DNA from: Pezizomycotina sp. ARF18
Lineage: Eukaryota; Ascomycota
Reading direction: 5' to 3'
DNA: 64,000 nucleotides
Assembly: GCA_002224055.1 (NCBI GenBank)
Contig: AZLU01000193.1
Coordinates: 1 to 64,000 of the forward strand
Below, in pieces: positions 3,409 through 51,219 of this stretch. The translations under genes and the position numbers were made by a program. The notes beneath the pieces were generated by a model that saw nothing but the letters and a program-made list of their open reading frames with translations, searched no databases and was not told where the DNA came from. The number at the start of each line of letters is the position of its first letter. Position 1 is the stretch's first letter.

Positions 3409-4795
3409 CTACGCTATGTTAAGGAGCCTGCTCGACTTGCCGCGATTCACCAACTCAACCTCCACGTCCACCGCACTCTTCGTCCTCTCGCTCCTCGTTA
3501 TAGTCGCGTACGTCCCACCGGTGCCACCCAATCGCGACGCCGCACCTCTCGTCGAGCTCCCCGTAGGCCGAAAATGGATCGTCCCGAACTCGTCGCTCCG
3601 ACCTTCACCATCCCCATTTCTCCGCTTATCCGTCATAGCGACCGTGCTACCTCTTTCTTCCGACGACGTCGGCGAAGAATATTTGTACGACTGGTGCAGC
3701 CACTTTAACGGCGGACAGCAGGCGAAGACGATCGCGATGCTCTGCTCGAGCGCTAAGGAGACGGCGGAGATGACGAAGTCGGAGCTCCGCTGCATGGTGA
3801 TTATGCGCGCGATGGAGGCGAGTATGCAGAGCAGGCCGAGGCCGAACACGAGCGCGACGGGGATTTTGCTTCGGGCGGAGAGCGTGAGGGCGGGGAGAAT
3901 AACGAAGGGTAAGTTGTAAACTATATCTGTTAGATTATTGTTAAGAAGTTCCGGGGATATGAACTTACTTAGGAGGTCGGTGAGGAGGTATAGAGTGCAT
4001 ATCTGAAATAATAAGTTAGCAATCCGAACAGATGTAGCATATAATTTTCAAGACTTACGACGTAGTACAGCTTCAGCGCCACGTAAGAGTTGCAAATGTG
4101 AGCCGGGTCGCCGACGCCCCTACAGCGCATCAGCAGGCAGTCATAAAATTCATTTAAACGTTTCATACCAATTCCTCGATATAGGCTGGCACCAGAATAA
4201 GTCCAGCAGCATAGATATCACGTAGCTCAGTATCAAGAACGCGGTCGTGAAGTGCAGGCCCATCCGGCAGCCGCGGCATCATCGGCGGGGATAGCTGGTA
4301 GTAACACAGCTAAAACGACCCTTTGATCGCGAATATCCCCGTTACGAACAGCGGGCCGCCGCGTACGTCAGCTGCGCAAAGTTAGCGCTGTTAACTCGAG
4401 AAACACTACGGATTCAGACCTTATATGCCGTGACCGTCTTCCTCATCTGCTCCCGCAGGTTTTGCACTGTCGTAATGCTAACTATCCCGGAATTAAAGTT
4501 CGAGCTCACGGCCGCTGCCTGGATTTGCGGATCCACCGCGGGTTTCCACCATAGCCTGACCAGGACAAACGTCCCTACCGCGTCGTTGAACGTGAAGCAC
4601 AGCAGCGCAAGGATGAAGAACCCGTCGCTGAGAGAGAGTTGGTTTTGGATGAACCAGCGCACCCATAGTCGGAGGATGATGAAAATCAGCGCGGCGAGCC
4701 ATATTATCCACTCTGCGATCTTCAAGACGTTAGCATAATGTGACTGGGAGGCAGCAGGTACAACGTGCGATAGCTCCGAGGGGTGTTACGGCCAT
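3409..4795 (-). CDS. Fungal rhodopsin-domain (Pth11/SAT4-type) integral membrane protein
   Basis: Minus-strand multi-exon gene. The likely start is ATG at 4795 (MAVTP), followed after one frame change by an N-terminal stretch ending QSHYANVLKIAEW. Membrane segments follow: IIWLAALIFIILRLWVRWF, then SLSDGFFILALLCFTF, GPLFVTGIFAIKGSF, FTTAFLILSYVISMLLDLFW and LPFVILPALTLSARS. The last is LEQSIAIVFACCPPLKWL. The family hallmark CQPISRNW plus GDPAHICNSYVALKLYYV is spliced across an intron at about 4116-4168. A second clear intron lies near 4004-4059 with GTAAGT and GCTAAC. Members are seven-helix proteins related to the Pth11 sensor group; ligand and role are unknown. Three or four frame changes plus a stop near 4310 interrupt it. 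The C-terminus is a hydrophilic Ser/Arg-rich tail. Confidence 0.75.
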
Positions 4796-22887: not shown

Positions 22888-23830
22888 TCATGCGCTCGTA
22901 TAACTACCCTTCCTTTTCTTCTGTACATGTTTCTTCCCTTCATCTTTGCCATATGCATTTGCCTGAAGACCTCGATCTCTATCGGTTGCCTCCTTCAGTC
23001 GCTTCGGGATACCCTTCAAGTTATCTCCCTTCCTCTTCAACGCCGCTGTATCATCCTTCACATTGCCGCCATACTCATAATCCGCCTCTTTCTTCAACCG
23101 CTTCGGCGTATCCTCCACCTCTTCTACCTTTATCTTCTTCCCCATCCCGACCTCGAAGCGGCCGTTATTACCATCCTTCGAATCCTGGTTGTCTGTAGCC
23201 TCATCGGCTCTGAAGATTGTCATAACGGTGGGCATCTGCGGCTTTAGCTTTTCTCTTTTCTTCGTCGCATTCTCGTCGGACATCTTGCTCCAAATTTTCG
23301 AATGAAGAATCCACCGTCTTACCCTCCGGAGGGAAATTAAATATCCGAGCAGTGCTTCGTGGTCCTTGTCAATCTCCTCGTAGTCCACCGACTCACCAGC
23401 TACCCCAATACTAAACGATAGCGGGTACTAAGAGTCCATAGAAAGAAACAAGGGAGAAAACAAGAAACTGTCATTAGCTCTTTTTTGTTTTTACGTATTG
23501 TTCCAATTTTCGAGGGAAAAAAATGCAGGCGGTTCTTACCCCCTGTGACAAATCAGCCGCGACGACGACATCAGCATGCTCAAGTAGATAGCCATGTAGC
23601 TCCCCGGGGTCGTTCCATCGCTCTTTAACCCACGCAATCTTGCTCTTGGTAATGTCAAAATGAATTTGCACTTGAGGTTGTTCGCGGCGTCGAAGAGGAT
23701 GGTGATGCGGAAAAAAGGTTCAAGGTGAGCGACGTCAGCGTTTCTGTATTCGATGGTGACATTCCTGAAGGTGATGAATCTGCCGATTTGGACGGAGAAT
23801 GCTCAGATTTTGGTGTACTTTTACATCATT
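22888..23830 (-). CDS. EYR-family paralogue E, with Lys-rich tail
   Basis: Exon 1 contains RFITFRNVTIEYRNADVAHL and EPFFRITILFDAANNLKCKF, the family core (hydrophobic-EYR, then an FFRI-type strand). After a frame change it reads IHFDITKSKIAWVKERWNDP and VVVAADLSQG. A canonical intron follows (GTAAGA at about 23543; AGCTAATGA branch; acceptor near 23431) at the position also seen in copies A, B and C. Exon 2 opens FSIGVAGESVDYEEI, matching the exon-2 starts of the other copies, and runs through ALLGYLISLRRVRRWILHSK into a basic tail of about 110 residues (DTPKRLKKEADYEYG, KKRKGSYTSA). The tail carries PKRLK and KKRK nuclear-signal-like motifs and is unique to this copy. The start codon is not clear. 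Confidence 0.5.
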
Positions 23831-24369
23831 TTGACGATGAGAGAGAGGAAGGAGACGAGACTTGGTGAGGGGTAGCAGTGCGTTTTATTCGTTTTGTTGC
23901 GAGCGTAATGAAGTTTTGGAAGGGAGAAAAAAAATCTCTTTTTTTTTGGTACCAATTATAGAAAAAAAACAAAATTTCCCTGATTCCTCATTCTTGAGTC
24001 TACTATTGTTATTATATAGTTTATGCATGCGAGCTCCCAACGAGATTGACCGAGAGTGGAAAAATCATACTCCTCGATCTCTCATCAAACTGACAGCCTA
24101 TATATAGCAACGGTGGGTGAGTTAAGTGAAGCTTCTAAGCTTCACAGAAGGGGACACTAAAGCATCACAGCCGCACAGGGAAAATCCTAATAGATGCCGA
24201 TCGTAAACAATGTTATACTCTCAGTTTGATGACCTACTTAAGGGGTTTCTATCTTATGTCCTCTAGTGTAATTCTATCGCCGAAAAGAAGAAATGAGAAG
24301 AAAAATGACAAGAGCAAAGCCCTTCCCGAAGCTGAATACACGAGCATGAAAACATCAGCGCACTACGTT

Positions 24370-24600
24370 TCATACCAATAACAGACGAGCTCTAGCTGTC
24401 GAACTTAAAAGGCCCCAAATTTTGGGTTTGTCTTCTACGTCCTGTGCCAAAAGACTAATCCATCTTCGTACAGTATCTTTCAGAGTATTGCAGCAAAGAC
24501 GATGGAATGTGATATCTAGATGATTTTCAGGCGGACAGAAGACGTCTTGGAGGACAATGTAGTTGTACATAATTGGAGTATAGTTGATAAGAATACTGCG
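24370..24600 (-). CDS. EYR-family fragment F (C-terminal part only)
   Basis: The minus-strand frame reads VFCPPENHLDITFHRLCCNT and VRRWISLLAQDVEDKPKIW. It aligns with the C-terminal part of copy D (ILCPLPNQLELKFTHICCNT, RKWIRTFKEDMEAKIEI): same CP-x2-N-x-L, CCNT and a basic-W-I motif at equal spacing. No N-terminal EYR part was found upstream, so it appears truncated, or its first exon is too diverged to see. An open plus-strand frame overlaps it. Confidence 0.4.
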   Translation of the reverse strand, partial: RSILINYTPIMYNYIVLQDVFCPPENHLDITFHRLCCNTLKDTVRRWISLLAQDVEDKPKIWGLLSSTARARLLLV

Positions 24601-24929
24601 GGCTCCACTCCTGATCCCTCACTTGATCGAGGAAAGATGTTTCGACATCTCCAAGCTAAAATGGAAACTTTAGAAGAATCAGTAGCCGGAGAAAGCACCA
24701 GACTGACCGTAGCTTTCTTGGAGCAGCTAGACGAAAAAGAATAATTGGGTGATGAAGTCTAGGGCTTACAAGATGTAGGGGAGAAGGAGAGGAGAAAAAC
24801 AACTTTGTACAGTAGATCGCTGGGAAGGATTTCAAGACGAGAAAATCTTCTCGGTGTGTAGAGGAAGATATCATAAGGAAATCTAGGGCAGTATGAAGTA
24901 AATCTCTAGACAAGAACATCAGCTGTTTT

Positions 24930-25661
24930 GTACAGTCTTAGAATGAAAAGGGATCCACATCCATGAACACAATTTCAATTTTCGCTTCCATATCTTCCTT
25001 GAAAGTCCTGATCCACTTTCGTGACCCTTCCTCCGTCGTATTACAGCAAATATGTGTGAACTTGAGCTCAAGTTGATTTGGCAGAGGGCAGAGTATATAC
25101 GGACGGCAATATTGTCGTATGTGATCGGGACATAAACAACGCGCACACTACCGCCCTTGCCACTTTTTGCTCGCTGGGTAGCCGGTAGCTTGATGAAGAA
25201 CCGAGGTCTCTAAGCAGTCTAGCAGAAAGGGAAACTTCGCGGAAAGATTAGTTTAAACGGATTAAACGGCCGGCTGGAAGATACATTGGAAATAGAAATC
25301 AACCGTGGAAGCAATATTTAAGACAACGCAAAGATACGCATCTTGTAGTACCGAACCAGTCACCACTTGAGCGTTGCACTACACAATTTACGTCTTGCTT
25401 AGTTCCAAGTTTGATATTAAGATCTAGCGGTGCGACTTCTATGTCTTCTTCCTCGTCACCCATGTTGCAAATCACAGTGACGTCTTCCCTCGGCAGCATG
25501 CACTTTCCTTTTACCGTCAAATCATCTATCTTAAAACGAACTTTGATATACACCTCATCTGATTTCCCTTGGTCGTGTCTATACTCGAGCCCGGCGTGAC
25601 TAAGAATTTGGTTGTTGATTGTGACGGATGTGGCCTTGGTGTTTGACCCGCTTTTACCCAT
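24930..25661 (-). CDS. EYR-family paralogue D
   Basis: Starts at ATG 25661 (MGKSGSNTKATSVTINNQIL). The family core is AGLEYRHDQGKSDEVYIKVR, then FKIDDLTVKGKCMLPREDVT and an acidic DEEEDIEVAPLDLNIKLG. The C-terminal part is ILCPLPNQLELKFTHICCNT plus GSRKWIRTFKEDMEAKIEIV, ending FMDVDPFSF with a stop near 24940. Between the halves (about 25150-25300) the frame is lost; an intron and at least one frame change are likely. The CCNT region aligns in position with the GFVFK region of copies A-C, but with a different motif. The function is unknown. Confidence 0.5.
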
Positions 25662-25669
25662 TTCGATGC

Positions 25670-26275
25670 GTAAACGTGTATAGGAATAGGAATACTGAGG
25701 GTCTGTGGCTGCTTGGTGGTACTTTTTCGCTAAAGGAGGAAGTTAGTGCTGTGAATTATTATTTGGATCTACGTTTAGCTGCTTGAACAGATGTTGGAGA
25801 TAACTTTTAGTGGTGGCAGCGAGTTTGGATAAATGCTTAAGTTTAGTGTCCAAATCTACTTTAAACTATCCGCAGTGAGGCGTGTCACTAGATTACTAGC
25901 GCTTAATGAGAAGTGATATCTAAGAGACTTATTATTGTATGGTCAAGTAACTACGGAGTTAGGAGCGCTAGCATTGCAATTTGGATTCCTTCTGACCTCT
26001 TCTGGTGTAAATAGTCTTTGCATTTATACCGTTGATAGAGGTATGTTTCTCTCTATGCGTCGCACTGAGAAACCGAGCGAGATACTTCAAGCAGTTCGGA
26101 GGTAAGAAGATAATCTCATTGGAATCATGCTGCCTTAAAGTCTATTTCATTGATCCTGGCTATCATTGATCTTTCCGCAAGCCTCCCAATGTTCTATTCT
26201 GTTCCGACTTCTAGCTTCTTCCATCTCGGCTCCTAATATACTTTGACGAGGCAACTATATGCTCTTAATTACAAA
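25670..26275. other. No gene seen
   Basis: Intergenic, likely holding the promoter of copy D; no motif is supported. Confidence 0.35.
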
Positions 26276-26281
26276 AAAATA

Positions 26282-26633
26282 TCATGAAGTATCAAAAGTT
26301 CCCCGATTATCAAAAGCCCCCTGATAGTATTCCAGATGCTCCCTATTATATCGTTCCAAAGACTTCCTGCCATAGTAACAAGGTGGGATTCGATTACTGT
26401 TGAGCTTTTTGGCTCTCTCTAGGATTTCCACTTCTCTGCGTTCGTAAAGCCTGCTCCAAGCCTTACAATGCGCGCAGCCCTGTACACCTTTATCGCAGCA
26501 GGAAAAGTCGAAAAGGGCGCCCTTGGCGGTACAAAAGCACCCATTCCACATATCGTGCTCTGTCACTGAGGGCTCCTCACGCCACCCGCTTCCGCCCAGC
26601 GACTGATTCGAGTGATGTCTGCTCGTTTTAATC
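26282..26633 (-). CDS. Cys-rich unrecognised protein, likely final exon
   Basis: The minus-strand frame is open from about 26633 to a stop at 26282 with GCFCTAKGALFDFSCCDKGV and QGCAHCKAWSRLYERREVEI, then a charged Tyr-rich end (YNREHLEYYQGAF). The CxC, CC and CxxC cysteines in 26 residues suggest zinc binding or disulfides. An in-frame ATG exists just before WNGCFC, but the open frame extends upstream without ATG, so an upstream exon is possible. It lies inside the EYR array, on the same strand. No family is recognised. Confidence 0.35.
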
Positions 26634-26639
26634 TAATTC

Positions 26640-27650
26640 GACACATTCCGTCCGCTTTATTCGTCTTTATAATGAATCTTTCGATTTAGTTCTCCGTCCA
26701 GGATTATGGTTCTTTAGGAAATAAATGGCTGTAAGATTTGAGTCTGTAATTATTAGGGCATTCTTCGGAACTTAGTCAACAACCCTGGTCTAATATAGTG
26801 ATGAACCTCACTCAACCTGAATACATAGATGATAAACTTATACCCCGACAATATGGAGCTTGGGGCATTGTGACATAAAGAGTAGATAGATCCCGTGCTT
26901 TTGAAACCACTTCCTTTTCGCACTCGAACTTGAAAAATCCGCCATCCTTAACCTAAGTGTATAATACGCAGACATTACTAGTCCAGTCAATACTCTCGGT
27001 TAATTGACGCGACGCTCTCCTTCATGAATACCCGTAATCGTTCACCTTGGAGAATGGAAATGTCCAATACCGTCCTCAAATTATTTTATACAAAATAACG
27101 CATAGAAATAAATAAACGTCGTTATAATTCTCTTCCCTCTCGAGATCACTTACTAGAAACCTCTTAAGCCTAATATCGCCTTCTTGTATAAACCTGAGAT
27201 ACAAAATAACAGAGATTTTCTCGAATTTAAAAACATACTTTAGCTCAAAATTTGAAGCATTCGGATCGTCTCTCCGCGTTTATTTTCGGTACCACAATAG
27301 AAAATGATTAAATGGAAAAAATCACCGGATTAACACCACACTGGACGGATCTCTATCCCCGAAAGTGTTCGTTAGTAGAAAAAATTGCTCTATTCACCTT
27401 AACATGACAGGCTTATCTGAGATTTAAATGTTTCAGAACAAAACATTTCAATTAGAACGCGATCTTTTCGCGGCGGTCTAGCCTGGAAATGAGACAAATT
27501 AAGTCCTGCTATTTCATTTGATTATCCCTATTTTCCTTATAAATAAAGTCACAAGTCGTCTATCGGCCGAGATTCTCTTACCAACCCCGCTGGCTGATTT
27601 TTTTAGTATCCTTAATAAAATCTGCACAGAATCTAACACAAAACTACAGC
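26640..27650. other. No gene seen
   Basis: AT-rich spacer of about 1 kb with no supported feature. Confidence 0.35.
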
Positions 27651-27657
27651 CCGGAAA

Positions 27658-28337
27658 ATGCATAGCTCACGATACTCGCTGTCGGTGTGAGTCTGTTGGC
27701 TACCTCCATTGCCACGCCCACACCAACGCCACCGCCAAAACTCGAAGACAAAGCCGCAAACAGCTTCGGAATTGTCGATTGGTTTAAAAGCAAAATTCCC
27801 TATTGTAAATCACTGCAATATTTACAAGAAAAAGAATTCCACGCCTTCAACGACGATAAGCCATCGCACGGCAGCAACCAACATCACAGCCTCGGGAACA
27901 CAGACAAGAAACCGTTCGTGATCAATCTAGACACCCTAGCCGATCACAACCGCATTCCTTCAGATACGCCTATCTTTTCCAAATCGCAGAGGGAATATAC
28001 ATTCGGCGGCGACGAGAGCTCCGCCCGGGACCTCGATGCATACGGTTTTACTCAGAGGAAACTAGCAAATGATTTACAGGGAGAAATAACAGAAACGGAC
28101 GCGGACGAGCAGATAGAATCGACGGGAAACTCAGGGTTACACGTTCACAGTAGGAGGACCGGAAGTGCGAGGTCCAGAAGCAATTCGTATGCTGCTTCAC
28201 AAAACTCTCCACAACCGAAGCATATGAACTTGGAGCCTGGATACGTGCAAAGCTTCGGCACGTTGGACAAGGAGAAGATAATAAATAAGCTGCCCAGTAT
28301 TGCTAGTGTTGGGCATATAGAAGAACACGAGGCGTGA
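27658..28337 (+). CDS. Secreted-protein candidate, hydrophilic low-complexity
   Basis: The ATG at 27658 (MHS) is one base out of frame with a textbook signal peptide, LTILAVGVSLLATSIA, which continues into TPTPTPPPKLEDKAANSFGI and an open frame of 216 residues to TGA at 28337. The mature part is hydrophilic, with one Cys, Ser/His/Asp-rich stretches and blocks such as TGSARSRSNSYAASQNS and NLEPGYVQSFGTLDKEKIIN. A one-base indel within the first codons explains the lack of an in-frame ATG. The only plus-strand gene inside the minus-strand EYR array. No known domain; an extracellular effector-like role is only inference. Confidence 0.5.
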
Positions 28338-28339
28338 AG

Positions 28340-28810
28340 CGGTATAATGGGAGCGAAACGAATTAAGGTGGTCAAACAGCCGACATTTGCATGGAGCTAT
28401 TAATTTTTATGGTAATTCGTAATTATGTCTATGTAGATAATTAGATAATGATATAATTAGGGCTGTAAAGGAACGATATAGAACGAGCTCGCTTGACCAA
28501 AGAGAGCTCTTATTCGCAAACTTTTTTCTTTTTCTAGAGACTAAGCTCCGAAAGAAAGTATAGAACAGGCTGTATTAACAGACTCAATACCATATCTAGA
28601 GCATAAAGCTAACTTATCGCATTCTCCAACTGATCCGTCTCAAACTCTAATATGCATAGCCATGCATCCTAATAATGCTTAAAATTAAGTACCTCATTTG
28701 TTGTACAGGTCGTTGCATAGAATCGGCAGCTTTGTTCCTTCCTCGGTCTTCTTTTCCCAAATTTTCATCCCTCTTGCTCTCCTCCATCTACCTTTGTCCT
28801 TTACTTGTTC
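28340..28810. other. No gene seen
   Basis: Convergent 3' ends of the plus-strand gene and copy A; AT-rich. Confidence 0.35.
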
Positions 28811-28817
28811 TCTGGTT

Positions 28818-29548
28818 TTACTCCCGCCTCATTCTCTTCTGTTTATCTGCATTCTCATCTGACTGGTTGATCAAATATGCACCTTCGTTGGAGAAATTCG
28901 TCGGGGTAGATGTCTTTCGCGTTCCTGTTCGCTGCCATATCATCAATGACTCTATGAACGGCCTCACGGCAGTTCGCAAGGAATAGGATTGCGGATCCCA
29001 TGCAAGTCTCTTAAATACGAAACCCCTGAGCTTTCTGTTTTTTCTCGTCAATCGCGCCATTGATGAGTGTCTTGGAAATCGAAGAGATGGTCGAATAGCG
29101 GATTAGTATAGTCAATAGTTGAGAATTCTCCCGGCCTTCTGAACGCAATATTGCGCGCGATTTCGATTTCGACCTGGAAGGGCTATAAGACCATTAACAA
29201 AAAACACTCCAGGCATATTATTGTCACAAAACTATCCCGTTGAGGAGCGATAGTTGTTCAAGGTCATCGTCCATGGACTTACGTTGTGATCTTCATCTAT
29301 CCTCACTGCAGTCCTCTGGTAGCAAAGCCGAACACCTTGAGGGAGCTCGGAAGAGTTGAAAACCAAGGTAGCGGGTGATCCTTCAGAAGAAGGGTAATCT
29401 TGATCGTGTAGTCCTCTAAGTAACGGAAATTGAATCGGAAAAATGCCTCGTCATCATCGAAGCGATATTCTAAAGAGGGTTTCATGAAAGTCTGCTCGTT
29501 TATTTTCACGAAACGAGCTTGATTAGATTTGAACCTTTTTAGCGCCAT
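28818..29548 (-). CDS. EYR-family paralogue A
   Basis: Starts at ATG 29548: MALKRFKSNQARFVKINEQT, then FMKPSLEYRFDDDEAFFRFN and YTIKITLLLKDHPLPWF. A frame change leads to VRIDEDHN, directly followed by a GTAAGT donor near 29274. Exon 2 begins VEIEIARNIAFRRPGEFSTI with YTNPLFDHLFDFQDTHQW. After a further change comes KNRKLRGFVFKRLAWDPQSY. The order (KRFK start, EYR, FFRF, intron, VEIA, LFxxLF, GFVFK) matches B and C. Alternating hydrophobic residues suggest a beta-rich fold. Role unknown. Confidence 0.55.
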
Positions 29549-29689
29549 TCTCGTCGGACAGAAAAATATTGAGTTCGAGTAGAGGTGAGAAGGTTGCGAT
29601 TATTGCAGCGTTAGCCTGACATTGACAGAGAAACAAGGACCTTCACTTTATTTCATTCGAGCTCATACGTACAGAGAGGCTTGCAAAAG

Positions 29690-30301
29690 TGAAAGATGTT
29701 ATTCTCGTCTCGGAGCGTCTTGAGAGGCTCGCAGGAATGCCTCGGGATTTACATCAACGTAGCCGACATTGTTGCCTCGTCCCCGCATATCTTATCAATT
29801 GTGTCGGTTGCTTTTTCAGGTGTCCAGGTGTTGCTCCATGCGATGTCTCGGAAAACGAAGCCTTTGAAGGTTTTTTCATTGAAGTAGAAGAGATTGTTGA
29901 AGAGGTTGTGGGCGTCCACTGAAGAAGACTTGTGGGGCTGTTAGATTTACGAGCAATCTCTACGTTGAAAGCCTTGAGGTAATTTTTTTAACGAACCCAT
30001 CCACGTACCCATCCACGTACATCACCAGCCTCTCCAAAGACGTCCCAAATAAAAAGTTGCCTTTCTAATTTTGAGCTTACATTATCGCCCTCATCCACCG
30101 CCTACGGTGGTCAAGACGGAATTTATTTTGCGTTCGTCAAGTTTTGAATACGAATTTTACGCGATAAGTATCGCCAAAGTCGAAGGCAAACCTGATGAAC
30201 TTTTCGTCTTCCACGTGGCGATATTCAATTGTCAGATTTGGAAATAATCTTTTCTTGATCTTGAGGAACCGGGAAGACGTGTATTTGAAGCGTTTCGGCA
30301 T
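29690..30301 (-). CDS. EYR-family paralogue B
   Basis: Starts at ATG 30301: MPKRFKYTSSRFLKIKKRLF, then PNLTIEYRHVEDEKFIRFAF and YRVKFVFKT. After a frame change it reads VDEGDN followed by a GTAAGC donor, the same residues and phase as in copy A. Exon 2 is FNVEIARKSNSPTSLL, then after a change DAHNLFNNLFYFNEKTFKGF and VFRDIAWSNTWTPEKATDTI. It lies head-to-tail just upstream of A, 140 bp apart, consistent with tandem duplication. Function unknown. Confidence 0.55.
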
Positions 30302-30309
30302 CGCGAAGT

Positions 30310-30620
30310 AAATCTCGGTACTGACAATTGCAAATTGGGCATTTCTACCTTATCATTCTGAGGGTGTTTCCTATTGGAGACTGCGTGAAAATTAGCGAAG
30401 GAAGGAGACGTACAAAATACTAGACATTTTGATTTATATACCAGTCCTGTCATTAGAGACGAAGGCGTGGGAGGTGCTCAAATGCCGGAGTATTATAACG
30501 GAAATTGCCATTACCTTTTTTTTTGTCCTTTTCTTATTGTTGATACAAGTTTGATGATGGTTATAAAAGAAAGACTTTAGAAAAAAAAATTATAATAAGC
30601 AATACTTAAGTTAATGCATA
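30310..30620. other. No gene seen
   Basis: Spacer between copy B and the solo LTR; promoter region of B by position only. Confidence 0.3.
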
Positions 30621-30626
30621 ATAAGT

Positions 30627-30747
30627 TTTAGGAACACTATTACCATATACCATGTAGATGCCTTATTGTATATAAATGGGGGAGCTTTCCTCCCATCTTC
30701 TCCATCAATCAACCCAATGATCGGCCCCTCCTCACGGTGCTCCAACA
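30627..30747 (+). mobile_element. Solo LTR of the same Copia family (121 bp)
   Basis: Matches the two LTRs of the 32-39 kb element over its whole length, sharing AGGAACAC, ATGCCTTATTGTA, GGGGAGCTTTCCTCCCATC, ATCAATCAAC and the CCAACA end. It is in the same orientation. Flanking 5-bp sequences are TAAGT and TAAAT, a near-perfect target duplication. No internal region accompanies it, so it is a solo LTR left by recombination. Confidence 0.8.
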
Positions 30748-30754
30748 TAAATGA

Positions 30755-31190
30755 ATAATACTAACAAATTACTGAAATGAACAGCTGGAATTATCAATCC
30801 CTTCACAGATACGATTATACCGTATGGTGCCTCGCGCCAGGACATGTTCAGAATCGTGTTGGGAAGTTCCAGTAAAATAATCCTGATTTGAATCCGAAAT
30901 AAACGGCATGCGGCGGTACTTGTCAGTACCCTTATCAGGTCATCCAGCAATCTACAAGGCTTAGAGCTCCGCGGTGATAGTTGGTGGGCTTTTATTATAC
31001 ACGTAATGGATATCTAGCCAAGCAGGCAAGGAGCTATTGGTAGATATGTAGATATAGAGGTCATTAAGCTAAGAGGCGCATTGGGAGATAAAGCTTTCTA
31101 GTAGAACTCAGGGGACCAAAAAAAATGTGAGAAATTGAAAAAGAGGTAGGAAAAAGGAAAAAAAAGAAAAAAAAAAAAAAAGAGAGAGAA
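30755..31190. other. No gene; long poly-A tract near the tRNA
   Basis: Spacer ending in A-rich DNA (31150-31195), which on the minus strand is the T-rich terminator of the tRNA-like gene. Confidence 0.4.
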
Positions 31191-31197
31191 AAAAATT

Positions 31198-31321
31198 TGG
31201 TCACTAAGGGACTCGAACCCTTACCGCTTGCCAGGTACAGGAAAACTTTCGTTACTCGCTGCGGTTTGTCAACTTTGGTTACTTCAGCCAGCAAGAGTTC
31301 TACCAGTTAAACTAAATGACC
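31198..31321 (-). tRNA. Intron-containing tRNA or tRNA pseudogene, isotype unresolved
   Basis: The minus strand starts GGTCATTTAGTTTAACTGG (acceptor strand and A box) and ends AAGGGTTCGAGTCCCTT-AGTGACC-A. This is a perfect T arm with B box and an acceptor strand pairing over 7 bp with one G-T wobble. An anticodon stem CTTGC/GCAAG is possible, with about 50 extra bases between its strands, implying an intron. The 7-base loop next to the stem does not give the invariant U33, so I cannot assign the anticodon; a small indel is likely. A strong T run follows the 3' end, as for a Pol III terminator. Confidence 0.7.
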
Positions 31322-31329
31322 TTCTGATT

Positions 31330-32030
31330 TGTTGAATACTCAGGCTGCAAATGAACCATATAAGGTATTAAGTCTCTTAAACGTCGACATAGCCATTTTT
31401 CATTCATTACATAAAAACCGAAAAGATTATTTCCTTGACACTCACCCACTCCTCTGATGTCAAAATATTCATTGACGACACAAGAGCTACAATCCTTGAC
31501 CACTCTATCGATATTCAAACGGCTACTTGGGCTAACGGATTTCAATCTATTCGTCCGCTACGATCTCTTAGTCTATCTATTAGACCTCTTATAGTCTTGC
31601 CTAGGATGCTCATATAGCCTTGAACCCCTGAATTTACACCAGCTTCAAGCATTGATAGCCGAACAAAATGCATAGCTATATGTGGGATATATTTCGCTGT
31701 TGCTTTATATCCCTGAATTTCACGACACAGTAACAAAACGCCCTAAGCAATAGCGGGATACCTTCCCTTTTGCAGGATATCACTGATAAATCACAAAGCG
31801 CGATAAAGCCTAAAGATGAATACCAAATTACATTGCTTATCTCCATGCATCGCTGAGTAGACCGGTGGACGAGCCTTAACATATTAATTCCAAACTCCAG
31901 AGAGAGAGGGGAGAGAGGGAGAGAGAGAGGCCATGAAGAATAAAAATCGGGAAGGAAACAATCTTTTGCTCTTTGCGAATGTTCTTTGCGAATGTAATTG
32001 AGACGAAATTGCGAAATCTAGCGAATTTTA
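31330..32030. other. No gene seen; short (GA)n tract
   Basis: Spacer before the Copia element with a GA-rich stretch at 31899-31930. Confidence 0.35.
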
Positions 32031-32038
32031 TAAGGATT

Positions 32039-32157
32039 TGTAGGAACACCATTACCATACATCATGTATATGCCTTATTGTACATAATAGGGGAGCTTTC
32101 CTCCCATCATGTCTATCAATCAACTCAAGGATCGATCCCTCTTCACGGTATTCCAAC
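32039..32157 (+). repeat. Left LTR of the Copia element
   Basis: 119 bp, TGTAGG to CCAACA. Nearly the same sequence as 39072-39187. It is much less RIP-altered than the interior. Confidence 0.9.
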
Positions 32158-32171
32158 AGGTTATAAGCCCG
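32158..32171 (+). other. Primer-binding site of half-tRNA (initiator Met) type
   Basis: GGTTATAAGCCCGG, starting at the first base after the LTR, closely matches the complement of the anticodon arm of initiator tRNA-Met (whose arm contains CTCATAACC). Drosophila copia and yeast Ty5 are known to prime from such an internally cut tRNA-iMet rather than from the tRNA 3' end. Confidence 0.65.
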
Positions 32172-35100
32172 GTAGATCTTCTACTAGCCAACTATAACGT
32201 TATAATGTTACGATATATTTATTCTTTTTTTTTTTAATTTTAATCTTATTTTATTTTATTAAACGGAGCACCGTCATCATAAAAGCGTAACGGTAAAGAC
32301 GCATATATATATCGATAGCAACTAACGCCCGAACGTTATAAAAGCGTAGCGCTAAAAGCGTATATATACGTTAAAGATATATAGCATTAAGACGTATATC
32401 GATAATAGCTAAACGCTTAAAGCTTAATAATAATATATAATACTCGGGTAAAGCGCTCCGATAGCGCGAGCGTATACTAGATTTAATAATTAACTAACGA
32501 TATCGAACGAAAATAACCTTAAGTATACGATAAAATATATAAAAAGTATATAATATATATAAGATACTATATAATATATATAAATCGCTTTATTATAATA
32601 TTTTAGCGAAGATTATAAGAATTATTATAAGCTTCTATCGATACTAATATAAAATAAAAAATTATATACGCCGATAGCTACTCTTAATAAAAATAATAAA
32701 AAAAATAACCGCCGGTATTAGACGATATTATATAATATAATTATTTATATTAATTAATAGCTAAAGATAATAAGGCTTAAAGAAGTATAAATTAGCTAAG
32801 TAGTACCTATATAAAAAAGAACTTAATAATAAGAAAAATATTAATCTATAGCTTATCTTTACCTTTACCTATAGACTATATCTATTAATTATTTTATATC
32901 GTTTTAATCGTCTATATACGCGATAATATTTTCTTAATCTAATAATTCTTTACCTATTATAAGTATAGGACTATTAAACGTTTTATTACCTAAACTACCT
33001 ACGTTAGCTCTTAGATATTAAAGGCTATACTTCGGTTTATAAATATCTAAAAATACTTTATAGGTACTACCGTCGAGCCTAAACGATATATCGTCGAATA
33101 TAGGCCGGTCTATATCCGCTTTAATAATAACGTTAAAGGCGCGTTTTAGCCGGTTAAAGATTAATTTAATTATATTAAGGTCGATTAACCCGCGTAGACG
33201 ATATAAAAATAAAAAGGTAATAAGGCGTAGGGCTTACTTAATAATTCTTTATCTACCGACTATTAATAATTAATTAATTAAGATATATTAACGGTTAAAA
33301 CCGCTACCGCTATTAAAAATAAATTTAATACTAATATTAATAATAGATATATATATATAATTAATAAATCTACGCTATATAAATATAAAAAAACGAGGAT
33401 ATTACTATTTACTATTTTTAATTATAACTTACTCGTTAATAGCTTTACAAAACTACTTTAAAACTAACTAACGATAATATTTAATTAAAACTTTTTAATA
33501 GCGTTACCTTAGCGTTTAGCGTATAATTATTAGAATATTCTTAATTTACCTAACCGATTATTTAAGAATATACTATAATAGCTTTTATATATAGAGGCCT
33601 AGTATAAAAATAATTAATTAGTCGGTTAATAATCGTTATCTATTAACGCTAAATTAACTATATCGCGAGATATAATAGTAAAAATCTTAACTTTTATAAC
33701 CCTCGCTATCTAGCCTATTTCCGCGTAAAAAACGTTTTTTTAGAGGATTAACCGATCTTTATTAATTATATAGACTTAACGGTTAACGTAACTACTAATA
33801 CTATAGTAGGTATAGATATATTAGAAGATATTATATAAACTAAGATATATAGTAATAGGCGGAGGTAGAAGTTTTATAAATAAATAAGCGTTATATCGTA
33901 ATAATTAATAATCGAGTAAAGAAGACGATTATAAGGTAAAGGACTTATAAAATAAGTTAATAATTTTAAAATTAATAATTTACCGATATACTCTATCGAT
34001 TAAAAAGATTTTTATAAGGTCGAGCTCGATAGGGTCTTTTTTTTAGAGATCTTAATAAGAAGTATAATTAATACCTAATTAATAATAATTCTTTAGATTA
34101 TTAATTTTAGCGCGTTAGTATATTTTACTATATATAAAAATAACTTTTAGAACTATTAATAGTTTTTAAAGCCTTATAAAATTCTATTAAATAACGGTTA
34201 CTCTCTATTATTACCTAGCTATAATAACGTATAGCTTATACTAATATTACGTCTTAAACGCGTCTAGTAGATACTAGGTTTATCTAGACGTCTAGTTTTT
34301 ACCGATAGCTTATATTAATTAGGCTATAAAATTATAATAAGCGATAAGATAGAAATAATTAAAGGTATAATAGTCGTTATAATAGCGTAATATTAAATCG
34401 ATAATAGACTATAAGCCGTCGTTTATAAGAAATTATATTTTACCGTTATAAATTAGACTAGATTATTAATAACTTTTAATTAAATACCCGCTATAATCGA
34501 TTACTATTACTAATTATAAAAACCTATACCTATAATATTTAGAGCTATAAGCCTATAGAACTAGTATAATATCTTAAATATCTTTATTACCGAACTATTT
34601 TATTATTTCTAATCGATTATAGATATTAATATAAGGACTAAGATCTAATAAAATTTATCTTAGTATAAAATCTATTAATAATTAAAAGTATATACCGCTT
34701 ATAAAAATAATTATAAGAACGAGTATTATTTTCGCTAAAACTTATTTACTTTAATATCTATAGTCTAATTAATTCTTAATAATCGATAAAGGCGCTTAAT
34801 ACTTTATTACCTTTATTAATAACTATATTTAATAAATAAGTAAATACTATATAACTAAAGACTAAGGTTAAGACTTACTTTAAATCTATCGATAAAAATA
34901 ACGGTATTATAAGTAAATAAAGTTAATAGTAAGAATTTAACGATTCCGCGTAGATAATAGACGTAAAGAATATATTAATAAAAAATTTAAGAATTATTAA
35001 TCGATAATAGTATACGATAGAACTAAGTCCGCTATATTACGTATTATTAAATAGCGTCGCTAAGCAAATAGGTAAAACGTTATATAAAATAGTAATAGCG

Positions 35101-38100
35101 ATACTTATATAGTTTAACTTTAGGCTAGATTTTTAGAGTAAAGCTATTAAAATAGCGGTATATATTTAAAATTAATTACCGATAAGAAGTAACGATAATT
35201 ATAAATCCTCGTATAAATTACTCTATTATTATAAGCCGACGATTATATATCTAAGACTTTTTAGTTATAAGGCGTACTTTTACCTATTAAAGAAACGCTA
35301 ATATAATAGAAAATTTAGTAATTAAGTACGTATAGCGATTATAATTAGTTACGTTAAATAATTAACGTTATTATATAAACTATATAATAGATAAGAATTT
35401 ATTATTTTTATAATATAAGATTTAATAAACGATTATTTCTTAATATAGCTACTAGATAAGCGACCCTATATTAGGTTTTATAAGATACTAATAATTATTA
35501 TTAATTAGAGTAAATATTATTAATATAAGTTACCGATAAAGTCTTAGGTATTAGATTATAAGAAATAGTAATAGCTATAGGTTTTAATAAATAAAACGTA
35601 GAATACTAAATAGTAGGTAATAGTAGAATAAAATTATTACTTCGCTTTAATATCTATTATTATCGATAAAAAGTAAAAATCTATATATCTTAAGCGGTCG
35701 CGGCGGTATAAAGGCTTTTACCGCTAATAAAAAGAGCTATAATCTATTTATTAATAAGATCTAGTTAGTTAGTAGAAATCGCGCCTACTTAGATATAGAT
35801 TATAACGAAGTTATTAATAAACGTTATTAGTTAAACTCTTAATAAATTATATATAGTCGTCGATTAATTAAATTATTTATAAGTAGGCTATATATACTAA
35901 ATAGTTATATAGTTACTATAAGATTTAATCGCTAAAAAAAGCGATAAGTTAAGATAATACTAATTAATAGTTTTTAGCGATAATCGATAAATATAATTAA
36001 TTTAAGATAATAGTTATTATAGTATTTAAAGCCTTCTAACGTATTATAGCGTTAAAATATAAATAGATATATATAATTAAATTAGGCGTAACCGATATAA
36101 GCTTTTATATAAAGTATAGTTAATTATACGCGGGGATTTATAGAAAAATATAGGTTTTAAGACCTATATCCTCGTCGTTAAGTTAGTTACCTTTCGTATA
36201 TTATTATCGATAGTAGCCGCTAATAATATAGAACTTAATAATATATAGAATAACGATAGCCTTTTTATATACGCTAACGTCTAAAGATTAAGAAATTTAT
36301 ATAGAAATTCTATTACTACTACCGATACTTATAATTAGTAATATTTTTTAATTATACTATTAAAACGCGTTGTTAGTTAGTACGAGAATAGTAGAAGTAT
36401 ATAGCGTTTTTATAAGGCTCTATATAGTCTTAAGTAGGTATTAAAGGTATAGAACGATAAAATTTAATAATATCTAATTACCGTAGGCTTTAAATAATTA
36501 AATCTAAATAAAGGTTTATATATTAATTAATAACTATTAACGATATTTACTATATATTATTATATATAGATGATTTTTTTATCGTAGCTAAATAATAGTT
36601 AGTTATTTAAAAAGTAAAGAAGCTTTTATAGAGAAATATTAAAAGATCTTAGTAAGGTATAGTTTTTTAGGGTATATAAATTTAACGTTATTAATAAAGT
36701 AAATAATTATATTATATTAATTAAACCGCTATACTCGCTACTCTTAGATAATTTAATATAAGCGATATCAATTCTATATTAATATTAATATAACGGGTAC
36801 GCCGTTTACTACTAACGATAATAAATATTAGATATAAAGAGTAGCCTCTAGTTCTATTAGCTATTAGACGTATTATTATAGTTTATAATAGCTACGCGAC
36901 CGGATATCGCGTACGCTATAATATATCTTTTAAAATTTACTATTTTACTATACTATATACGCTCTTATATTAAAGATCGTCTTATATTATCTATTGGTAT
37001 ACCTCGCCTAGGTATTATTATTACCGCTTAATAATCGAGACTTTAACGGTATAGTAATATAGACCTTATATAGACCTAGCGACGTAAAAAATGTAGAAAT
37101 ATACTATTTTATACTTAGGGATTAATAAGTAAGATCGATAGTCTACTAAGCTAGCGCTTAAAGTAATAATTATTTATAATATTAACGATAAAATTTAAAT
37201 ATATTACCGTAAAAGAGGCTACGAGAAGCTATCTTTCTTTACGTCTAATTAGCGCGTTAACTATTATCTATTTTTAACTATATTATATATCGATAATATA
37301 GCCGCTATTATACTAACCGATACGATAAGAATTACGATCGAGCTAAGTATATTAATATAAAATTTACTTTCTCTACTTTCTTATTAATTAAAAGCTATTA
37401 TCGATTATATATATCGTCTTAAAAGAATATCCCGATATTTTTACTAAAGTATTACCGTTACCTTAATTTAGTTATCTATATATTAAGTTAGAAATAATTA
37501 TCGCTAATATTTAACGATAATACTCTTTTTTTCTACTAGTAAACTTTTTTATAGGGTTTTATATATATATAGAGTTATAGGTTATTTAACGAGATTAATA
37601 TTAATATATAAATATAGCGTAGCGATAGTTAATATATATAAACGAAGATATATAACGATAACGATAATAATAATCGATAACTATAAACGATTAAAAGGTA
37701 ACTTAATATAAGTAGATAGATAAAAACGATAAAAATAAGCTCTAATCGAGATAGACATACGATTATAAGCGATAAAAACGTACGAATATCTTAGGTTATA
37801 CTATACTAAAAGAAGAAAGATAGATTAATATATATAAAATTTATATAAGTAGTAATAATATTAAAAGGACTAAATTATTAAAATTAAGAACTACCGTATA
37901 GTATTAATAACTTATATTAATTATACTATCGATAATACGATTTAATTAAGCGACTTAAATAGAAGGGACTATACTAGTATTTAGGTCTAGATTAGAACTA
38001 TCTTTTTTATTATTACTTATCGTTATTTAGCGGTTTAAAATCTAAGTACTTAACCTTAGAATCTTCGTCTAAACTCTTATTATCGTTTATTAATTTTTAA

Positions 38101-39062
38101 TCGTCTCTACTTTTATAGGCTTATTACCTCGACGAGTACGCGTAAGATTTAGCGCGCGAATAAACGAAAACTCGCCTCCTCTATAATTTTAACTATTAAA
38201 TATATAATTTTATATTTATTAATAGTATTATTATTCACTAGATCGGTACGTATATACGATAACGGAATATAATAATACCGTTTAAAAGGGCCCTCTCTTA
38301 TTTTAGTAATAGTTATATAAACGGGAAGCGCGATACCTAATAGATTACGTATATATATCGATCCTAGTACAAAAATAAGATTAGTATATTAAATTAGATA
38401 ACGATAAAAAAATCGATAAACGGTTTATTTATACTAAGACTATTTAGTACTTTAATTATAATATTAACTACGTATAAATAATCGATAATACTCTTTACGT
38501 AACGTATAAAAATCTAAATTATCGTTTTATTATAACGATAAGGATACTTACTAAATATAACGCGGGATTATAAAAATATAACCCGGTTTCGCGGTACTCG
38601 GTATTCTACTTATCGTTATTATATACCGGTCCTCTTTTATTATTTAATAAACCTTTTTTAAGACGCTTAATAGGGCGCTTAGAAGCCTTTACAGGACGTT
38701 TATTAGACTTTTTAAGAGGTATTAATACGTATAATTATAGAAGTATATAAACGAGATATATATATAATTACTTAGAACTATCGACTATAGATATCGATAA
38801 CTAAAGACTTATAGAAAGAAAGATATAATTAAGGGAAAGGAGAGAATAAAGCTCTAAATATAGAAGACTCTTTCTTTACTATAATCGTTTATTAGTATCG
38901 ATAGTTCTTTATTTACTATTTTCTAAGCTATTACTTATATATCTTAAAATTATCGATATTTATATTTTCTTTATTCCGTTTTAATAACCGCGCATACGGT
39001 CGATAAACGCGTTTTTTTTATTAATACGCGCTTACGATTATAGTATTAGTAATACTGCGCTC

Positions 39063-39071
39063 GAGTGGGAG
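39063..39071 (+). other. Polypurine tract
   Basis: GAGTGGGAG directly before the TG of the right LTR, the place and composition expected for the plus-strand primer. Confidence 0.65.
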
Positions 39072-39187
39072 TGTAGGAATACTATTACCATACATTATAT
39101 ATATGCCTTATTATACATAATAGGGGAGCTTTCCTCCATCATATCTATCAATCAACTTAGATCGATCCTCTTCACGGTGTTCCAACA
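39072..39187 (+). repeat. Right LTR of the Copia element
   Basis: 116 bp, starting TGTAGG and ending CCAACA, aligned along its length with 32039-32157; differences are mostly transitions of the RIP type plus a few small indels. Confidence 0.9.
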
Positions 39188-39269
39188 GAATTCGTGGTAC
39201 GGTATAATCTCCGGCGGTGCAAATCATTGTGCTTCTTACTCCGCCATTTACATATTGGATAGTAATCTT

Positions 39270-39877
39270 TTAAAGGTTCTTAAGATACTTTTCAGGGCTG
39301 ATATCCACGAATCCAAGGTTATTCTTCATCTCCTCCATCATCCTATCGCCGACGTCAATGGCTAGCTGAGGGGACCAACTTTGATGCTCACGCCATTGTT
39401 TGAAGATGAAGCCGGAAAAGGAATTCGCGTCGAAATGGAAGAGACCTCCGAAGATGTTGTGCTGGAGTCGATTGGAGTCCAGTCGGCCGACCTGCGCGAT
39501 GAGTTTGTCTTCATCGCGACCTCGACCTTGAAGAAGTATCAACATATGTCAAAATAAAAAGTAGCGTCCTTAAATATCACTCGACAGACTGCTCTTTAGA
39601 CAAACTCATGCATCATTCAACTTACGTCGTTGCCCGCTCAGCTCGAAGAGCTAGATCTTCCGGGAAGATCTGCGAGTGCCCCAAGGGATTTCGGAGGAGG
39701 TGTGGACGAAATTGGTTTTATGTTCTTCGAGCAAAAACGTTACGCGCACGTAGAACATGTTGTCTAGGTCAAAGTCGGCTCGTCATTGCCAAATCGATAT
39801 TCGATGGAAGGATTGGCAAACGTCCTTTTATTGATGATGAGAAACCTGGAGCACGTTGACTTGAATCTTTTCGGCAT
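39270..39877 (-). CDS. EYR-family paralogue C, next to the Copia element
   Basis: Starts at ATG 39877: MPKRFKSTCSRFLIINKRTF, then ANPSIEYRFGNDEPT, and after a frame change FDLDNMFYVRVTFLLEEHKT. An intron with a GTAAGTTG donor near 39626 ends near 39541. Exon 2 reads RGRDEDKLIAQVGRLD, then LQHNIFGGLFHFDANSFSGF and IFKQWREHQSWSPQLAIDVG, ending KYLKNL at 39270. This is the best preserved exon 2 of the family. The stop lies only 83 bp from the right LTR, so the insertion may have cut its 3' region. It is separated from copies A and B by the retroelement. Confidence 0.55.
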
Positions 39878-47047: not shown

Positions 47048-50000
47048 CTACGTGATATCATCCGCGTATGCACGAAAAATGGGCAGAAATGCACTGAAAA
47101 CAGAGAAAAAAAATACAGTGGAAAAAAAAATAAAGAGAAAAATAAAGAAGGTATGAGTCGCCCCGGTGGAAATAACACTCCTCAAAATGCCTTTACTTCT
47201 TCTCCCTTCTTTCCCCTTCTTCCTCCTCGAAGCCTTCTTCCTCTCAGGACTCTGCGTCCTGGGACTGACAGGGTTGCTGCCTGCCGGACTGGCCCCAAAG
47301 TCCCTAAACACGGCCCTGGTAGCCCAATTACTCGCTCCCTCTCCGTTGCCCGCCTGCTGCTGCGGGAACTCCACCGTCGTACCCTCGGGTAAATTCAAAT
47401 CCCCGCCGAACCTGCTAACCTGCAAAACGTCCGTTCCGCTGGGAGTATTACTCAACTCCAGCATCCCCGTCCCGCGCCTTCTCAACCCCGTAAGCCTATC
47501 CGCCATACTCAGCGTCGCCGCATCCGGCTGGCTGAGCTGTATCGCGCCATCGGTTCCTATACCTCCCAAAGCACCGCTCGGAACACCACCAGACGCGGAA
47601 GCAGCAGTCACGTCAGCATTACCCCCGGTCGGGACCAACTCGTCGTCGAAGACGCATCTTCGTCCTCAGCTTCCTCCTCCTCCTCGTTCGTTCTCTTATT
47701 AAACGTCGCAACCCTACCCAAACCACTTCTGGCAGTCTGCGGCCTCCTCCTCTCGAAATCGGCAGCGTGCGCCTGCGCGGCGGACGTGGCTACTATGCTC
47801 AGCGCCCGTATTATGGCGTCGCGCTGTCCCTCCGTCCGCGACCGGGTGGGCGTATCCGGTCCGACGCGGCGGAGTGCATGCTGATCGCGGTCTGCCTCGT
47901 GTCCGCTCTTTCCAAATTCGACGATCGGCGAATCCGGTCACGGGGGAGACGACTTCGGACGGTCGACGGGGTTTCTTCGAGCCGGCTTTCGCGCCGCCGT
48001 TTTCTTCGAGGACAGATTCGAGGGATGACATGGCGAGGGAGCGGCGGCGCTCGCCGGGAACCCCAGGGCAGGGGACATTGTACGGGAGCGGAATGTCGTC
48101 GCGATAGGCGCGGAAGCGACCGACACTAAGTAGTTACCGTCAGGACTCTTGCTCGAATTTTGTAGAGATAATAGGAAAACTTTAAGGGGTAAACTTACTT
48201 CGTGCAATGTTCGTTCTCCAATCTAAAAAAGCACCATACCCATCTCCGGAACAGTTCCGTAAGGCTAGTTATAAAACTAACAATGGCGGAGTGCTGCACG
48301 TTCTGCTGGAAGATAATGTACAGCAACCAATTGAAACGAATAATCGGATCAATGACCATGGCCGCGTAGTACACCGACGGCCGCTTGAAGCCCATTTCGG
48401 TACGGAGGAGCTTATTCGGGGCGTCCCAGTCGAGCAAACTCCAATCCATTGCGAGATCCCAGACGGTGGTGTAGCACGAGTTGAGGACGGCGAAGAAGAT
48501 GAACAGCGCACGAAGGCGGTCATTCGACTTATCCATGCGCCACAGGCTCAGAGACATGTAGAACATGACGGTGCAGAGGTACTTACCGCCGTTGACGAGG
48601 TGGGGGAACCAGTTGCGGGTATCGTGATAACGGCGGAAGCACTGGAATAGACGCCATAAGCCCGGTAGAGTCCCGAAAAACCCGAGGACTCGCGAGTTGG
48701 AGGAGTTGCATTGTACGGGGTGGTCCCAGTTTTGATGATAAAGACATACGACGAGCGGAATTGTCTAAAAAGAACAAATTAGCTGAAGACCTACGACAAG
48801 GAAATTTTTTTCAGGTGAACTTACGGTTAATGTATAGGTCATGGAGCAGAACATATCACCGATCCAGAAATCCCTAAATTCTACGGGATAAAATCCAGCC
48901 CATATCACGCGCCATATCGCGTACAGAAACCATTTCCTACTCTCATAGTAGCACACTCTTATCGATTGAACATGATGAGGAACACGACTCCAGGAATATC
49001 AGCGGGAACCATACTCGGTCAATTCCTTCGCCCCAAAATCCCGAAAATGTAAAGAACATGAGGAAGCACATTATCGAAGCTAGTAGCGCAGGTATTTCCA
49101 GCAGCTGCCGCCAATCGATGTTGTGCTTTTTGTCAAATTCGAAGATGAAAACGTAATTTATCCGGGCGAGTGACCACGCCCTGCAACATAGCGAGAATAG
49201 TATCATGAAGATAATGGGGAGGCCGAAGCCCGCCCATACTTGTAACAGGTAGCTGACCTCCGACTCGTGCCACATGCCGTAATGATCTCCGCTCGATCAT
49301 TAAATGCAAGATACAAAGCTTGTGCGAGGAACGGCACGCCAGAGCCGAGGTATACACCGACGCGGAACATCGCACCAGTCTGCTGGGACTTCTGGTCCTT
49401 CGTGCGGAGACGCTCGACGGCGTGCTTCCTCCGCCACGCTCCCAGTACGTAGCAAAGAGCTCCTCCACTTTCCCCATCAACGTATCCAGCTCGTCGGAGG
49501 TCGCGAACGACGCAGTGTGTACCTTCTCGTTCATGTACTTCGCGGAGATGCGCTGGTGCGCCGTCTTGTCGAACTTCTTCAAGATCTTGCGAAACCCTTC
49601 TCGGTTAAGAAGGCAGTACGACTTCAGCAGCTCGAGGCCACGGTAGTACTCCAAAATCGCAAGCTTGATCTTCCTCTTCGCCGTGCGATAGCCGACGTGT
49701 GGCTGCTGCTGTTGCGGTTTCCTGTTATAGTCACGTCTACCGGGGTCTAATCCGTGTAGTTCCTCCCTCGTCGATGTCGGCGCGGCGGCGACACCCGCTG
49801 CAGTAGCACCCAGCTTCGCGACCGTCGGCTTGGTATCGTCATCCGCCTTCTTCTTGCTCCCCAGAATGCCGGGCATATTCATATGGAAGCCGGTACCATT
49901 AGTCCAGCCAAATCCGCTGCCCTTAGCGGCTTGGGCGGCCTTTTCTTGCGCTTCCTGCTGCTTCTGCCACGTCCGGTTCGCCATCATAATCTCGATTTGC

Positions 50001-51219
50001 TGTTCCAGCACCATCAACCGCTCTTTCGCCTCTTGTTCCTTCAGGTTGTAGAAGTTTGTAATCTCTCCAGCTCGTCGTCCAGGAATTCAAAAAGTCCCGT
50101 TGCGCGTCTTCTGTCATCTCCAGGTATACCGTCGTGTTTCGCATCGATGGAGCCGTGTTATGTCGACCAAGGTTAAACTTCAACGCTACGTTTTGAACAA
50201 CCGCTGCAGGTACGGTCGGTGGTTAGCTGTAGACGTCACCGTTGGAGGGCCGCCGCGAGGTAAGGCGTCCCCGCCTCCGGTGCTGCCTCCGACGTGTCGA
50301 GGAAGTGCGGCTCCGACTGCGATAAGCCCGGAACGTAGAGTACGCCAACCGAAGGGTCGTCATGGTGCGCGAGGTCAGCCGAATCGAACGTGTTCGCCCG
50401 CATGCGCTGCATCGACGTCCGCTCCTCCAACGGCTTCAGCGGATCCGGAAGTATCAAACTGGGCGGTCGCTGCGGCGGCGCGTGCTCGTGTCCTTCGCCG
50501 ATGCTACCGTAGGCGCGGACGCTGTGCGACATTGGTTGCGTGAGAGGTGTCCGTTCCGGGTTAAGTTCGCCTTCCTCCGGCGTCGGCGCGAACCGCGGCG
50601 TCTTCCTCTCGAACGGCGATTTTGGCGTCTTCGGTGTCTTACGGTCCAGATCTGCCGTCCGCGGAGATTTACCCCTTCCCTCGCCGTCATCGTCCGTCCC
50701 CATGATGAAGGTCGTCCTCCTTCCGTAGATCTCGGTGCTGTCCCCGCAGACGGCACGCTAATAGGTGGTGTCCATTATTATCGTCGTCAGTCAGCCGTGG
50801 CGTGTATCCCACCGCATTTGGCGTCAAATAGGCACTCCCAGCTTGACCTGCCGTGCCATTCGTCCTCATGGAAGCCGGCGTCCGCCTCTCCAGTACCGGC
50901 AATGTGTGTCGACTGTGCGCTTCGGCATGTCGGAGTGCGCGTGCGACCTGTTTGAGTTTTTTCTTGCCTCCCTGTAGACCAAAAAAAAAAATATCGCAGA
51001 AATATGTTAGAAAAGAAGCGCCCATTTTCATCCCCCAAAATCTTCAAGATCTCACATCCTACCTTGTAGTTGATGTACTTCGCCCGCCACTCCGGCACCA
51101 GGTTATCCTCGAGGTACCTATCAACACCATCAATAATCAGTCCTGCTGTGTCGCGATTACACGTAGAAGGTCAATAAATGGGGGGTTTTTTTCCCTCTCC
51201 TTACTTTGCGAACTTCATG
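47048..51219 (-). CDS. SYG1: SPX-EXS membrane protein, SYG1/XPR1 family
   Basis: ATG 51219: MFKAK-type start (MKFAK), intron 51118-51205, then YLEDNLVPEWRAKYINYK, intron 50972-51062, then GGKKKLKQVARALRHAE: the SPX N-terminus. A Ser/Pro-rich insert follows, then FLDDELE, ITNFYNLKEQEAKERLMVLE and KIKLAILEYYRGLELLKSYC, FRKILKKFDK, closing SPX. The EXS part has many membrane spans and the family signatures FYPVEFRDFWIGDMFCSMTY, FRRYHDTRNWFPHLVNGGKY and WDLAMDWSLLDW, then RRWVWCFFRLENEHCTN and VGRFRAYRDDIPLPY. Introns at 48765-48824 and 48126-48198 restore frame exactly. XPR1 exports phosphate and SPX senses inositol pyrophosphates; yeast SYG1 was found as a suppressor of G-protein signalling. 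A C-terminal Ser/Pro/Lys tail ends near 47160-47190 (stop uncertain). Six or more frame changes. Confidence 0.9.

Follow-up and report, generated by a model that had tools for sequence, protein, structure and literature searches.

An old, unannotated family of tandem genes in Pezizomycotina sp. ARF18

The 64,000-nucleotide stretch that we analysed (contig AZLU01000193.1 of Pezizomycotina sp. ARF18, assembly GCA_002224055.1, positions 1 to 64,000; hereafter, the window) carries five genes on its reverse strand, designated A to E (Table 1), which by sequence comparison share a homologous N-terminal core. They form a real, old and unannotated tandem family of an ordinary kind, whose copies are old duplicates, probably retained as coding genes. 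The reading that we favour, with a probability of about 0.6, is that of a lineage-restricted family of small intracellular proteins, whose copies arose long ago by tandem duplication within a filamentous ascomycete and have been retained as coding genes. By the frames seen, the predicted products range from ~120 to 270 residues.

Shared core and intron of the five copies

All stop-to-stop open reading frames (ORFs) of the whole window were compared with one another by blastp. The first exons of A, B and C showed 43–67% mutual identity (E 6e-8 to 5e-10), and the second exons of B and C were 36% identical over 42 aa (E 4e-9 to 6e-9). D matched A (E 3e-5 to 5e-5) and B (E 0.006 to 0.013), and E matched B with E-values of 0.06 to 0.08. 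A profile built from A, B and C only, leaving out D and E, was then run on the 2089 window ORFs of at least 20 aa. D ranked fourth with 18.9 bits (E 1.6e-4), and E came fifth with 15.5 bits (E 1.9e-3); the next ORF reached 5.8 bits. The highest score obtained from 100 residue-shuffled ORF sets was 14.9, so that none of the 100 equalled D or E. A shorter profile of 33 columns left the order unchanged, with E-values of 0.018 for D and 0.027 for E. Likewise, none of 1000 pairwise shuffles scored as high as the real pairs D-A, D-B or E-B, and seven of 1000 did so for E-A. Direct similarity between D and E was unsupported, with 222 of 1000 shuffles as high, and these two copies are therefore linked only via A and B. 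The tripeptide EYR is invariant across all five copies, and A, B and C share a KRFK start. An earlier note, made from the letters of this DNA alone, had described a tandem array of same-strand genes with an EYR core and KRFK starts, allowing that the shared motifs might not exceed chance; blastp for A to C and the profile for D and E bear out the array, and in the shuffle controls the motifs do exceed chance.

Downstream of the core, conservation is less uniform. The motifs LFxxLF and GF[VI]F[KR], which the same note placed after the intron, are supported in B and C (E 4e-9) and more weakly in A (E 0.047 among the 2089 ORFs), but not in E. Similarity of E exon 2 to its counterparts in B and C was not found (353 and 733 of 1000 shuffles as high, respectively), and its homology with the A to C second exons is unsupported.

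A GTAAG donor and an AG acceptor occur at the equivalent place in A, B, C and E, delimiting introns of 109 (or 100), 108, 99 and 112 bp, respectively, in agreement with the common intron proposed earlier. The surroundings of the splice sites read IDEDHN^..VEIEIA in A, VDEGDN^..VEIAR in B, AGND^VEVAM in C and ADLSQG^YPLSFSIG in E. In A, two AGs separated by nine bases are possible acceptors; B has an AG only at the upstream position, adding AFN before VEIAR, for which PFQ would be the counterpart in A. The intron position is thus common to the four copies. Phase 0 is provisional: all four can be read this way, but it holds only on the assumption that the frame changes of exon 1 are sequence errors.

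By the shuffle and profile comparisons, the fragment F, previously counted with the family, does not belong to it. Its scores against A, B, D and E were at chance level (245, 905, 710 and 909 of 1000 shuffles as high; the pair with C exon 1 was untried), and we rejected it as a member. Instead, blastp matched F to positions 24,971-25,096, within a stretch that we designate G and that is absent from the earlier note (38% over 42 aa, E 1.5e-8). In a single-sequence search of the whole source genome, F found only itself and G. The A to C profile and an F/G profile fail to align; among 36 pairs, two shuffle results were borderline (F with E exon 2, 40/1000; G with C exon 2, 64/1000), and we do not build upon them. 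By these comparisons, F and G constitute another diverged pair, interspersed within the array.

Table 1. Positions in the window of the tandem copies, the interleaved pair and the repeats
Feature	Position	Strand	Details
Copy A	28855..29548	-	exon 1 ~29283-29548; intron 29174-29282 (or to 29183); exon 2 to ~28855; frame changes within exon 1 and exon 2
Copy B	29699..30301	-	exon 1 ~30081-30301; intron 29973-30080; exon 2 to ~29699; frame changes
Copy C	39270..39877	-	exon 1 ~39626-39877; intron 39527-39625; exon 2 to 39270; frame changes
Copy D	25299..25661	-	one open frame, 120 aa; only the N-terminal core in common; no intron
Copy E	22888..23802	-	exon 1 ~23540-23802; intron 23428-23539; exon 2 22888-23427, with a Lys-rich tail containing two PKRLK repeats
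F	24370..24618	-	outside the A to E family by shuffle and profile tests; partner of G
G	24941..25147	-	diverged partner of F; CCNT motif
AT-rich block, mutated by repeat-induced point mutation (RIP)	32159..39071	.	between ~120-bp repeats resembling long terminal repeats (LTRs); separates C from A/B
~120-bp LTR-like repeat, three copies	30,627-30,747; 32,039-32,158; 39,072 to ~39,180		

Searches for relatives

The source genome (a 46.36-Mb assembly of 408 contigs, in which the window is G000:C193) was searched with single sequences. The first exons of A, B, C and E, the second exon of C, and D gave no match outside the array at E <=10; in these searches A, B and C failed to recover D or E, so that distant copies could be missed. 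Scanned one by one and as single sequences against Pfam-A, the array pieces gave nothing below E 0.03 and nothing over a curated cut-off. The best Pfam match to D, SoxY (PF13501), covered 34 residues with an E-value of 0.036 and 14.7 bits against a cut-off of 28.4; this, a match of B exon 2 to Rotavirus VP7 (E 0.044) and one of an A piece to ribosomal L41 (E 2.1) were set aside as chance. PDB sequence searches returned best E-values of 4.3 for the five-row exon-1 alignment and 0.24 for C exon 2. Pattern searches yielded 41 matches in IMG/VR (viruses) and 293 in GTDB (bacteria and archaea), none of them confirmed; this says little about fungi, and the null result is as expected because the family is fungal. 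No report on this family was recognised among the literature titles and abstract openings that were listed. The earlier note did not recognise the family either, and none of these four databases provided a known one.

The strongest competitor of our reading is that A to E are a diverged branch of an already described fungal family, such as a named domain of unknown function or an accessory family. We regard this as possible, at somewhat less than even odds. The Pfam scans used single sequences, piece by piece, and the searches did not cover fungal proteomes, leaving room for such a relationship; against it stands the lack of any Pfam match below E 0.03 and, in the two PDB searches with family pieces, of any below E 0.2. 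The A to C profile, and then D and E, constitute a query for fungal proteomes. More generally, the array illustrates that an intron and core motifs allow a divergent, unannotated family to be recovered even where the fungal assembly is noisy.

Frame changes, constraint and proposed role

The second competitor, a graveyard of pseudogenes, holds that an old tandem family is decaying beside a retroelement and that its frameshifts are true. The frame changes within the exons of A, B and C, the EYR frame of E, which misses the donor in phase 0, and the RIP-mutated surroundings would all fit this explanation. However, other genes behave likewise in the same assembly. An RNA polymerase second-subunit gene on contig C15 switches frame at base 326,207, where two pieces adjoin that follow one another in the profile; a B-family DNA polymerase gene on C35 does so at three places, between abutting or overlapping pieces. 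The second-subunit loci on C82 and C236 contain stops within the match, and other splits and stops in polymerase genes of this assembly may partly be introns. Within the window, the SPX and EXS domains of a SYG1/XPR1-like gene lie in separate ORFs, with several frame switches by eye. Since such frame switches occur in polymerase genes as well, the frameshifts of A to C do not prove decay, and the indels that the first reading of this DNA had suspected gain support. Additionally, the frame of D is open, the four copies with an intron retain canonical splice sites, and the differences in exon 1 are biased towards third positions. We therefore consider the graveyard doubtful.

In the exon-1 core, synonymous sites are saturated, with proportions of synonymous differences (pS) of 0.77-1.08 versus 0.21-0.36 for nonsynonymous ones (pN). 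Third positions account for 18/32, 24/42 and 23/46 of the differences in the three comparisons (one-sided binomial probabilities of 0.006, 0.001 and 0.014, respectively). This codon pattern lends support to coding constraint, although it is not proof. The synonymous saturation, together with the kept protein motifs, indicates that the copies are old duplicates, probably retained as coding genes. Their description as fast-evolving was accordingly right as to the high divergence, but this divergence largely reflects age and the exon-1 core appears to be constrained.

If the family consists of small intracellular proteins retained as coding genes, as we favour, the frameshifts in the copies would be assembly errors. 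The N-terminal half would adopt a predominantly beta-stranded fold, to which A to C would add a short helical part in their C-terminal half. In draft structure models, D is all strand (mean predicted local distance difference test score, pLDDT, 45.5), and C exon 2 comprises two short strands plus helices (mean pLDDT 50.8). No hydrophobic leader was seen by eye in the KRFK starts of A to C. These basic starts and the Lys-rich, PKRLK-repeat tail of E may point to the nucleus, or to contact with nucleic acid or chromatin. In the mechanism that we regard as the likeliest, though we hold it weakly, the copies would act as small binding modules, and the old duplicates would have diverged in partner specificity.

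RIP usually needs a minimum repeat length, which exceeds the exons of the array copies. Their divergence, and exons below the usual RIP length, might have spared the copies the RIP that mutated the adjoining retroelement. If functional, the copies would be an instance in which tandem paralogues have lasted in a strongly RIP-active genome. At the speculative end, and in our opinion quite improbable, the family would have a new fold, and its old tandem copies would serve as a permanent repertoire of variable modules for intracellular recognition, with a role for instance in telling self from non-self or in nuclear genome defence; the divergence of each copy beyond the reach of RIP would account for their preservation in a RIP-active genome.

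Several observations weigh against a retained, intracellular family. Exon 2 of B and C shows a pS of 0.63 and a pN of 0.42 (dN 0.63, dS 1.35), without third-position excess (23/61, p 0.28), and constraint is not evident there. The stretches compared were picked by protein similarity, which biases dN downward, and the three exon-1 comparisons share sequences and span only 33 codons. By eye, frame changes are somewhat denser in A to C than in the SYG1-like gene, and some copies may be decaying. In A, B and E, EYR lies outside the phase-0 frame that reaches the donor; in C, this frame has a stop five codons upstream of the donor. Finally, both structure models are poor, and the case for a nuclear role, drawn from motifs seen by eye, is weak.

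Two further explanations fare worse. The copies could encode effector-like proteins acting in host interaction, as in other accessory compartments, since the array adjoins RIP-mutated repeats, comprises old divergent paralogues and may hold a secreted protein proposed in the earlier note; the KRFK starts, without the hydrophobic core of a signal peptide by eye, make this improbable. That a repeat or transposon brought in the shared motifs as a by-product, as the LTR-like repeats between A/B and C might hint, has very little to recommend it, because in the single-sequence searches the six family pieces lack matches outside the array at E <=10, unlike a dispersed repeat, and the copies have an intron in common.

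Surroundings of the array and known systems

The region at 32-38 kb has 22-26% GC, and its RIP indices are extreme, with a TpA/ApT ratio of 1.33-1.42 and a (CpA+TpG)/(ApC+GpT) ratio of 0.01-0.18. The second and third copies of the LTR-like repeat, at 32,039-32,158 and from 39,072, flank the RIP-mutated block; most simply, this arrangement would reflect the insertion of a short-LTR retroelement between B and C. RIP on this scale presumably denotes a filamentous ascomycete. The source genome has other fungal features, namely a fungal-rhodopsin domain, in the window, and rDNA in tandem units, whose 5.8S match scored 160 bits.

Two other frames lie within the array. A Cys-rich open frame of 116 aa at 26285-26632 (-) lacks a Pfam match at E <=1; in the source genome it has a relative at C106:109546-109758 (36%, E 7e-5) and a match on C20 with an E-value of 1.24. 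The secreted candidate of the earlier note is a 223-aa open frame at 27666-28337 (+), on the opposite strand, and also lacks a Pfam match at E <=1. Neighbouring genes in the window encode a CAP-domain protein (1092-1817, -), a fungal rhodopsin-domain protein (3412-4047, -) and the SPX/EXS (SYG1/XPR1-like) protein (48195-50086, -).

Elsewhere in the source genome, a contig of 56,537 bp (G000:C257; L020:975-3572) contains, in the 5.5 kb inspected, long unbroken ORFs at ~36% GC. A divergent protein of 865 aa encoded there resembles the RNA polymerase second subunit (Pfam Rpb2_6, E 3.6e-17), and at 31.3-32.3 kb an open frame of 759 aa has a match to B-family DNA polymerase; the contig may represent either a DNA virus or a linear plasmid. 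On another contig (G000:C189:16800-20500; L016), 5.8S genes are 10.87 kb (or twice that) apart, and extra sequence was seen by eye directly before TTCCGTAGG, near the 3' end of the small-subunit rRNA gene, which suggests a group I intron.

Lineage-restricted (orphan) tandem families of filamentous ascomycetes occur in repeat-rich compartments. Copies A to E resemble them in being clustered paralogues without a recognised domain, located beside RIP-mutated repeats, and differ from them in that the copies are old, by the synonymous saturation of exon 1, and have retained the position of their intron. A more distant parallel is found in the aphid bicycle genes. As summarised in PMC9168663, these belong to another kingdom and are implicated as plant-gall effectors, and we claim no sequence relation to A to E; like A to E, they are highly divergent paralogues, and their homology is guided by gene features independent of the coding sequence (PMC9168663).

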